Assembly (NCBI GenBank): GCA_009904015.1
Contig: WYEQ01000035.1
Span: forward strand, 1 to 64,000
Direction of reading: 5' to 3'
Length of the DNA: 64,000 nucleotides
From: Desulfurococcales archaeon
GTDB taxonomy: Archaea; Thermoproteota; Thermoprotei_A; Sulfolobales; Fervidicoccaceae
Of the stretch, positions 37,767 to 39,556 are shown piece by piece. The position numbers and the translations under genes are program-made. The notes below the pieces were generated by a model. The model was given only the letters and a program-made list of their open reading frames with translations. It searched no databases and had not been told where the DNA came from. Each line of letters begins with the position of its first letter. Position 1 is the stretch's first letter.

Positions 37767-38273
37767 TTAATTCGAAGTATTAAATGTTAACAGTTTCTCA
37801 ATAGTTGGGAGACACCAATTGTATCTAGAAGATGACAAAATGTATATCGGTACAAATGATGAGGGGAGAGGTATCCTGACCAAAATGTGTCTACTGGTTT
37901 TTGGTGGAAGAAGCCTATTACTAAGCCCAGCCTCAACAACCAATTGTTTTGTAACATTGAAGTCTTTTCTAAACGACTTAACGATAATGTAGCTTTTACT
38001 GTAATCAACAAAGAAAACAGGAGCCTTATCAAAACCCAATTGTTTTAGAGCCTCAACTCTGTGATGACCATCTAGAATAACGAAAGTTTTTAAATCCACG
38101 AGGACAGGGTATTTGACGTAGCCTCTGCTCAGTATGTCCCTTTTAACCTGATTTACCTTCTCAGCTATGACCTCTTCATGTGGTCTCAGAGTTTTTATAT
38201 CAACTACACAGGTCTTGAGTTCGAGCTTAGTTAGCAAATTTGTTAAATACTGGTAATTTTGAGTTGTGGTCAT
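37767..38273 (-). CDS. serK: Free serine kinase (ParB/Srx fold)
   Basis: This kinase would phosphorylate free serine to O-phosphoserine for cysteine synthesis. The 168 residues show LRPHEEVI with the expected catalytic Glu, VILDGHHRVEALKQLG (nucleotide/phosphate site) and LPPKTSRHIL near the C-terminus. These align with SerK of Thermococcus, but this protein is clearly shorter, lacking an insert between the second and third motifs. An ATP-dependent version is reported from Staphylothermus. ATG 38273 has GGAG 6-7 bases upstream. Earlier in-frame starts are unlikely. Its neighbour uses the product. Confidence 0.85.
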   Translation of the reverse strand: MTTTQNYQYLTNLLTKLELKTCVVDIKTLRPHEEVIAEKVNQVKRDILSRGYVKYPVLVDLKTFVILDGHHRVEALKQLGFDKAPVFFVDYSKSYIIVKSFRKDFNVTKQLVVEAGLSNRLLPPKTSRHILVRIPLPSSFVPIYILSSSRYNWCLPTIEKLLTFNTSN

Positions 38274-38362
38274 TTTTACTCCTACAAAACAATAATTGCA
38301 TTGTTTTGCCGTATATATATGGAGTATATATTGCCTCAGGTAACTTTTTTGGGTGATAATCC
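38274..38362. promoter_or_regulatory. Shared divergent promoter serK / O-phosphoserine sulfhydrylase
   Basis: The 89-bp gap holds overlapping TATA-like runs (CGTATATATATGG then AGTATATATTGCC, about 38309-38334) readable on both strands, with GGGTGAT before the rightward ATG and GGAG before the leftward ATG. Coordinated expression of the two cysteine genes is likely. No operator is recognised. Confidence 0.55.
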
Positions 38363-39556
38363 ATGAAGCTGGTATCATCAAGCTTAATTGAGTGTAAAAG
38401 AGAAGCTCTGGATACCTTCGTACAGAATGCGCAGAAAATATTATCAAAAATGAGGGTAAATGCACCAGTAATAGTGAACCGCCAGCTCGAAGTTATTGGT
38501 AATAACGAAACATGTGACACGCTAAAGAGACTAGGAGCGAGATTCGTTCCTGTTGTTTTCATGGAAGAAGTTAAAGATATCAATATTGACCTGCGGGAAT
38601 TAGGGTTCTACGAGGACATCAAGCCATCCGAATTCAAAGTCTTCAGCAATATTCATGAATTAATCAGAGGTTTATGGCCCACTCCGTTAGTGAGAATAAA
38701 ACTCAGCGAGGCTCCAAGCAACATAGATTTATATCTAAAGCTGGAGGGCTTCAATCCTCTAAGCATGTCTGTTAAGGACAGGATAGCTTGGTACATGGTT
38801 ATGAACGCGGCAGAGGATATTCTGAGGTCTGGCAAGCGAAAATTATTCATGGAGCCTACCTCGATTAACACTGGTTTGGGAATTACGCTTATTGGCAACA
38901 CGCTTGGCTTTAAGACAAGGCTGTTTATTCCTAGAACAGTACAGAAGGAAAGCGAGGCTATCTTGAAAATAGCTGGGGCGGATGTTAAAAGGGAAGACAA
39001 GCAATTAACAGTAGAGATGATAGACGAGGTGAAAGAGCTAGCCTCTAGAGAACTAGGTGTTATGCTTAATCAGTTTGAGAACGATTTGAACCTGGAGGCG
39101 CATTTAAGGTTCACCGCGAAGGAGCTGGATGTACAGTTGCAACGCATAAAGAAAAAGCTTCTCGGCATCGTAGGAGGAATCGGTACATCGGGGCACATGT
39201 CCGCGTTATCGATTTACTTCAAGTCTAGATATCCATCTGCAAAAATTATAGCAGCGCAGCCTGCCCCTGGAACAAGCATTCAGGGTATAAGAAGAGCTGA
39301 AACAGGCATGAAATGGCTGAAGTACGCGGTGTTCGACCACATAATAGACGTTCATCCAAAGGAGGCTGTTGATGCAGTGAAAAAAGTAGCAATTGAGAAC
39401 GGATTGCTTATTGGCCCGAGCAGCGGAGCAGCCGTTCACGCTACTTTGAAAGCGATTGAGAAGGGATTAATACCAGACGAGAAAGGCGTAGTAGTGGTGG
39501 TCTCTCCAGATATGGGTCACAAATACGGCGAGTTCTTTTCACAATATCTTGATTAA
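38363..39556 (+). CDS. O-phosphoserine sulfhydrylase (cysteine synthase)
   Basis: This PLP enzyme probably makes cysteine from O-phosphoserine and sulfide. Residues about 105-397 form the fold-II catalytic domain: PLP lysine in NPLSMSVKDR (Lys138), the substrate loop PTSINTGLG, GGIGTSGHMSALS and a GPSSGAAVHA late block. The extra N-terminal region of about 90 residues matches the extended form known from Aeropyrum, which uses O-phosphoserine. That region resembles the neighbouring kinase domain with its DGHHR signature lost. ATG 38363 has GGGTGAT upstream. Divergent from serK. Confidence 0.9.
   Translation: MKLVSSSLIECKREALDTFVQNAQKILSKMRVNAPVIVNRQLEVIGNNETCDTLKRLGARFVPVVFMEEVKDINIDLRELGFYEDIKPSEFKVFSNIHELIRGLWPTPLVRIKLSEAPSNIDLYLKLEGFNPLSMSVKDRIAWYMVMNAAEDILRSGKRKLFMEPTSINTGLGITLIGNTLGFKTRLFIPRTVQKESEAILKIAGADVKREDKQLTVEMIDEVKELASRELGVMLNQFENDLNLEAHLRFTAKELDVQLQRIKKKLLGIVGGIGTSGHMSALSIYFKSRYPSAKIIAAQPAPGTSIQGIRRAETGMKWLKYAVFDHIIDVHPKEAVDAVKKVAIENGLLIGPSSGAAVHATLKAIEKGLIPDEKGVVVVVSPDMGHKYGEFFSQYLD

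Follow-up and report, generated by a model that had tools for sequence, protein, structure and literature searches.

Why should an archaeal O-phosphoserine sulfhydrylase (OPSS) begin with some 90 residues that recall the serine kinase (SerK) encoded next to it? The question is raised by two adjacent genes in a 64,000-nucleotide stretch of contig WYEQ01000035.1 from a Desulfurococcales archaeon (the whole of this stretch is referred to as the window), where a first-pass annotation had read the N terminus of the sulfhydrylase as a decayed copy of the neighboring kinase domain. Part of this interpretation stands: profiles, fold, and intermediate forms agree on a decayed SerK-like ParB/Srx domain, and descent of the OPSS extension from a SerK-type ParB/Srx domain, closest to the free serine kinases SerK and SbnI, is well supported. 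The remaining part, that the extension is a copy of the neighboring gene, does not survive the comparisons given below.

The gene pair and its shared segments

SerK P0002 is read from the minus strand, with its ATG at 38273 and the last base of its stop at 37767; it is divergent from the OPSS gene P0001 and separated from it by a gap of 89 bases; both reading frames (37767-38273, minus strand; 38363-39556, plus strand) lie where they had originally been placed. Two TATA-like stretches occur within 38274-38362, between SerK and OPSS, and the divergent pair may have a common control region. The features of the locus are as follows:

37767..38273, minus strand: short SerK-like gene P0002, 168 aa, recognized by motif conservation
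38175..38180, minus strand: His32-Glu33 of SerK P0002, equivalent to His29-Glu30 of the crystallized free serine kinase
38058..38072, minus strand: DGHHR signature, SerK P0002 residues 68-72
37887..37907, minus strand: PPKTSRH segment, SerK P0002 residues 123-129 (the entire segment is missing from the OPSS extension)
38274..38362, no strand: divergent intergenic region of 89 bases with TATA-rich stretches, a putative promoter region
38363..39556, plus strand: predicted O-phosphoserine sulfhydrylase (OPSS) gene P0001, 397 aa
38363..38632, plus strand: OPSS N-terminal extension, residues ~1-90, a decayed SerK-like ParB/Srx-fold domain
38393..38398, plus strand: Cys11-Lys12 of OPSS, at the position of the SerK His-Glu pair (ungapped reading)
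38498..38512, plus strand: GNNET, OPSS residues 46-50, at the position of SerK DGHHR
38579..38608, plus strand: INIDLRELGF, OPSS residues 73-82, probable equivalent of the last SerK segment 'VPLxxL', judged from intermediate forms
38669..39505, plus strand: PLP-dependent enzyme core (PALP, PF00291), OPSS residues 103-381
38774..38776, plus strand: Lys138 of OPSS, equivalent of the PLP lysine (Lys127 of A. pernix OPSS)
39293..39295, plus strand: Arg311 of OPSS, equivalent of Arg297 of A. pernix OPSS (O-phosphoserine recognition)

The aligned Lys138 and Arg311 give P0001 both the PLP lysine and the Arg297-type residue of an OPSS, which it is predicted to be; Arg297 of A. pernix OPSS plays a part in O-phosphoserine recognition (PMC5120207). 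All three SerK motifs, namely the catalytic Glu, DGHHR, and PPKTSRH, are present in P0002, which is probably active as a serine kinase. An insert of roughly 90 to 110 residues distinguishes long SerKs from short SerKs, P0002 among them, and from the dead domains described below; against the NCBIfam SerK equivalog, P0002 scores 53.4 bits and does not reach the cut-off of 380.

All of the segments quoted in the first-pass annotation are present in the order given: ILSRGYVKYPVLVD, LDGHHRVEALKQLG, and PVFFV in SerK, and ILSKMRVNAPVIVN, GNNETCDTLKRLG, and PVVFM in the OPSS extension. BLASTP of P0001 against P0002 recovers exactly this stretch, with 16 of 52 positions identical (31%; E = 7e-4, for one comparison), and the pair's local score of 56 is matched by 1 of 2,000 shuffles of the extension. 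Taken from the window pair alone, the similarity is suggestive, and, since a single pair is indecisive, relatives were collected (from 229 genomes of the class, further stretches, and 79 loci found by a genome-collection scan) and family profiles were compared.

A profile of 71 short extensions, from which every intermediate form was excluded, aligns with a profile of 37 short SerKs at an HHalign probability of 98 (E = 2.5e-13, score 77.6, 68 columns). Reversed controls scored ~11.6, and every genuine match among 500 column shuffles scored ~23 or less; the profile-profile comparison proposed at the outset thus reveals similarity beyond chance. Scores near 130 appeared in 2 of the 500 shuffles, and both were discounted as program artefacts because the match of one of them spans just 7 columns, at the end of the shuffled alignment. 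Homology to SerK is likewise found at a probability of 99.2 with full-length dead domains (E = 1.2e-19, 129 columns), and one dead-domain query searched against whole genomes recovers the window SerK at E = 2.4e-12, as the sole match in that genome.

Among PDB sequences, an HMM built from the extension only finds SbnI (E = 0.004, 0.097, and 0.11), the A. pernix enzyme (E = 0.28), and SerK (E = 0.49). The top match of that search, a designed helical repeat protein (E = 6e-5), is spurious: one helix is matched four times. Pfam assigns no domain to the OPSS extension, and P0001 has no match to ParB_N (PF02195). For the most reduced extensions, direct profile similarity to SerK is weak (probability 48 for the Aeropyrum clade and 1 for Pyrobaculum), and their putative kinship with SerK is traced through the intermediates.

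Predicted fold of the extension

From residues 1-95 of the window OPSS and 38 extension sequences, with SerK left out, AlphaFold2 returns a model of the extension with a pLDDT of 89.9 and a pTM of 0.78. In a Foldseek search of this model against the PDB, ranks 1-47 are all SbnI, SerK, ParB, Noc, KorB, or sulfiredoxin (best E = 2.9e-4); the alignment to SerK spans 73 columns, at a TM-score of ~0.63 by query length. The predicted model therefore has the ParB/Srx (ParB-CTPase) fold that the first-pass annotation had anticipated, rather than an unrelated one, with the extension itself staying below the PF02195 cut-off.

The full-length window OPSS was modeled as well (pLDDT 91.9, pTM 0.90), and its extension is predicted to lie packed tightly against the PLP-enzyme core, as it does in the crystal structure of the A. 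pernix enzyme. Superposed on that enzyme (1wkv), the model aligns over 401 columns, with a TM-score of 0.90 by target length and an rmsd of 2.6. Bacterial cysteine synthases without an N-terminal domain align with the same model over roughly 290-330 columns. The window OPSS thus has an Aeropyrum-type N-terminal domain, in keeping with the extended N terminus that the first-pass annotation ascribed to the Aeropyrum enzyme, and superposition along nearly the entire 1wkv chain argues that the N-terminal domain of A. pernix OPSS is the same SerK-derived relic. That domain was reportedly termed a new alpha/beta fold in the 2005 A. pernix OPSS structure paper; an origin would now be supplied for the N-terminal domain of a 20-year-old crystal structure. 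A. pernix OPSS (CysO; PDB 1wkv, 3vsa, and 6l0p) belongs to the same family and has the same three-part layout, with the PLP lysine and Arg297 matched, but its N-terminal domain is more reduced than that of the window.

SerK of T. kodakarensis (TK0378; 5x0b, 1vk1) has the ParB/Srx fold and the sequence profile in common with the extension, from which, however, the catalytic Glu, DGHHR, and PPKTSRH are absent. The extension's best structural and profile match, SbnI of staphyloferrin B biosynthesis (PDB 5uje, 6nr6), differs in being an active, separate, bacterial enzyme; it supplies O-phosphoserine to the PLP enzyme SbnA.

A 2025 survey of the ParB-CTPase fold described fusions of the fold and foresaw non-catalytic versions; it relied on PF02195 with gathering cut-offs, and its text contains no occurrence of pyridoxal or PALP (PMC12704722). 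The PF02195 cut-off (26.3 bits) is missed by the window SerK P0002 (16.3 bits), by two fused SerKs scanned (22.2 and 25.3 bits), and by the extension, which would be a further example of the ParB/Srx fold retained without catalysis, beneath the cut-offs of the published survey. In a literature search conducted outside most subscription journals, the SerK paper itself was the only one to connect OPSS with the ParB fold, and, with the structure papers on SerK and on A. pernix OPSS lying outside that search, there was no mention of a relation between the 1wkv N-terminal domain and SerK; that the SerK origin of the OPSS N-terminal domain is a new finding is not proven.

Intermediate forms, motif loss, and age

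Among 125 distinct OPSS, 8 have an active SerK followed by a dead SerK, 18 are labelled dead SerK, 82 have a short extension, 6 are unclear, and 11 are without an extension, where the architecture labels were set by score limits, the E-values of the searches are relative to small reading-frame sets, and two short extensions labelled dead SerK (L019 and L045) are counted with the short forms below. Full-length SerK-like domains (~150 residues) occur on the OPSS of many Bathyarchaeota, Wolframiiraptor, Culexarchaeum, and one Thermofilaceae archaeon. In many full-length dead domains, a counterpart of TKELVREAGL..LLPPKTSRH and the final 'NVPLxxL' are still present; locus L080 has TKEAILEAGL..KLPPRSF in place of the former. 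The short form of the window is without the stretch (TKxxV...PPKTSRH in SerK) that leads from the last core strand to 'VPLxxL', and that of Aeropyrum is shorter still; judging from these intermediates, the last SerK segment 'VPLxxL' appears to have been retained as a linker in the short extension.

In eight distinct proteins, the dead domain follows an intact-looking SerK within a single chain (the SerK–dead-SerK–OPSS fusions of L066, L082, L085, L153, L158, L166, L172, and L174); these SerKs have DGEHR or DGVHR and PPKTSRH or a near form. At L160 (1910-3526) the first kinase is reduced to a worn remnant, and at L080 (1212-2621) it is gone: at these two loci, a once-fused active SerK seems to be decaying or to have been deleted again. 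In Pyrobaculum and relatives (L190, L192, and L195-L197), OPSS has an N-terminal stretch of 78-96 residues that resembles mainly the extension's tail; the Pyrobaculum OPSS extension matches SerK at a probability of 1 and other extensions at 95, and the stretch is either a further decayed extension or something else.

The His-Glu pair is present in 47 of 49 short SerKs and in all 8 fused SerKs, as against none of the 24 dead domains; HHR is present in all 49 SerKs and in none of the 24 dead domains or the 80 short extensions, every one of which is also missing the PPKTSRH segment. In the window extension, the catalytic Glu (Glu30 of the crystallized free serine kinase, whose PDB entries include E30A and E30Q mutants) is replaced by Lys12 on an ungapped reading, and GNNET stands in place of DGHHR, a loss that the first reading had rightly noted. 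Hydrophobic residues, glycine, and proline make up nearly all of the extension positions conserved in at least 60% of rows, and no conserved polar patch is found in the alignment columns of the short extensions. From these residues we infer that the OPSS extension no longer phosphorylates serine and is a non-catalytic scaffold.

In a tree of the PLP cores, from which the extension was left out, every extension-bearing OPSS falls on one side of a branch (FastTree local support, 98), and the full-length dead-domain enzymes and fusions form a clade inside this side (97). A tree of the domains themselves, which covers 82 columns only and is weak in its details, recovers the 24 dead domains as a single clade (99), separate from the active kinases; the fused active kinases cluster together as a group within the short SerKs. 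The SerK of the same genome has a median rank of 15 of 49 among the matches of an extension, and ranks 30 of 49 in the window. The extensions are thus not best matched by the SerK of their own genome. On the trees and these ranks, the acquisition is old and not a copy of the present neighbor; in line with the PLP-core tree, the extension was probably acquired once, long ago, by the enzyme from which a large clade of archaeal OPSS descends. Within the family of the window genome (L074, L062, and L114), OPSS is found with a short extension (window), with a full-length dead domain, or with none, and therefore gain, loss, or transfer may have occurred there.

A recent copy of the neighboring SerK gene would account for the adjacency and similarity of the two genes, yet the window rank, the single clade of dead domains, and the spread of the extension across a wide archaeal clade all speak against it; rejected on the PLP-core tree, the domain tree, and the match ranks, this reading is left with next to no credence. 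Equally improbable is that the extension is an unrelated small alpha/beta domain whose similarity to SerK arose by convergence or chance. The modest similarity of the single pair and the lack of a Pfam domain on the extension would be in keeping with such an origin, but profile, structure, and intermediate forms all agree otherwise, and the HHalign score relative to shuffles and Foldseek ranks 1-47 led to its rejection.

Gene-level links between SerK and OPSS, and possible roles of the dead domain

SerK adjoins OPSS at a minimum of 32 of the 82 short-extension loci, mostly directly upstream on the same strand and sometimes divergently as in the window, and a short SerK adjoins at least 4 of the 11 extension-less OPSS; neighbors were scored by presence and not by gap, and the counts are lower bounds because loci have flanks of 1.5-2.5 kb and many contigs are short. 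By genome, with the presence of the extension taken from open-frame length, a short SerK occurs in 41 of 78 with the extension versus 3 of 44 without it (22 of 36 versus 1 of 17 by genus), and 37 of the 78 extension-bearing genomes are without a short SerK. Gene order, fusions, and co-occurrence (the last of these confounded by ancestry) fit a tie between SerK and the extension-bearing form of OPSS, and lend a putative docking of SerK and channelling of O-phosphoserine indirect support only.

We regard as moderately likely the proposal as a whole, in which the extension is a SerK-derived dead domain, now a non-catalytic scaffold and a candidate SerK-holding surface on OPSS. A SerK-type domain was joined, probably once, to the ancestor of the large archaeal OPSS clade and has lost the catalytic Glu and DGHHR, the short form having also lost the PPKTSRH segment. 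The dead domain may be, or may once have been, a surface holding a separate SerK beside OPSS, where O-phosphoserine made from serine could be handed from SerK to the sulfhydrylase; chains in which the dead domain follows an active SerK would represent this pairing in covalent form. A present role of the dead domain as a putative SerK-docking surface is put forward tentatively, and is not clearly ahead of a structural role. Somewhat doubtful is the full docking platform, in which the active SerK would bind its inactive relative on OPSS and pass on O-phosphoserine, forming a putative archaeal serine-to-cysteine metabolon that would also exist as a single chain. That a biosynthetic enzyme should bear an inactive relative of the enzyme that precedes it in the pathway hints at a pairing of kinase and OPSS, and the natural fusions are single chains in which the hand-over of O-phosphoserine is testable. 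Methanogens offer an analogy in SepCysE-SepCysS-SepRS, where a scaffold protein unites two O-phosphoserine-to-cysteine enzymes and where a truncated SepCysE-type scaffold can be fused to one partner enzyme (PMC5424206), but that route is tRNA-dependent and its proteins are unrelated.

An extension of the same origin with no present tie to SerK, acting as a structural part of OPSS that stabilizes the fold, the dimer, or the mouth of the active site when hot, is a serious possibility, if short of an even chance. Such a role is consistent with an extension that packs tightly in the model and sits at the same location in the crystal structure, with conserved residues that are almost all hydrophobic, with the lack of a short SerK in about half of the extension-bearing genomes, and with Aeropyrum, which keeps a very reduced extension and encodes SerK elsewhere; since the extension has no conserved polar patch, a structural role suits it equally well. 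What this role leaves unpredicted is the near restriction of short SerK to extension-bearing genomes, along with the recurrence of neighborhood and fusion. We consider it unlikely that the dead domain is a sensor, tuning OPSS by binding serine, O-phosphoserine, or a nucleotide without reaction: the full-length dead domains do retain the SerK layout, including an LPPKSF-type segment, and nucleotide binding is a general property of the ParB fold, for which non-catalytic binders have been foreseen (PMC12704722), but the PPKTSRH segment is missing from the short form of the window, where conservation of polar pocket residues is also lacking.

Sulfur carriers also occur at or near OPSS. At L199 (1874-3493; Bathyarchaeota SKYB89), a MoaD/ThiS-like sulfur-carrier domain ending in PAVSGG lies in frame with a dead SerK and OPSS in a protein of 539 aa, and the fusion gene is followed by a MoeB/ThiF-like gene and a cysteine-desulfurase-like gene; the sulfur carrier and its neighbors were named by eye, and the arrangement recalls, as an analogy, the CysO-CysM route of M. 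tuberculosis. The OPSS of L150 (2399-3757) starts with MIFIPAVSGGSQ, which is how a sulfur carrier of this kind ends; no sulfur carrier is present upstream in its frame, and this start is possibly the remnant of a sulfur-carrier fusion. Separate MoaD-like sulfur-carrier genes lie near OPSS at L144 (481-777) and L119 (2521-2892).
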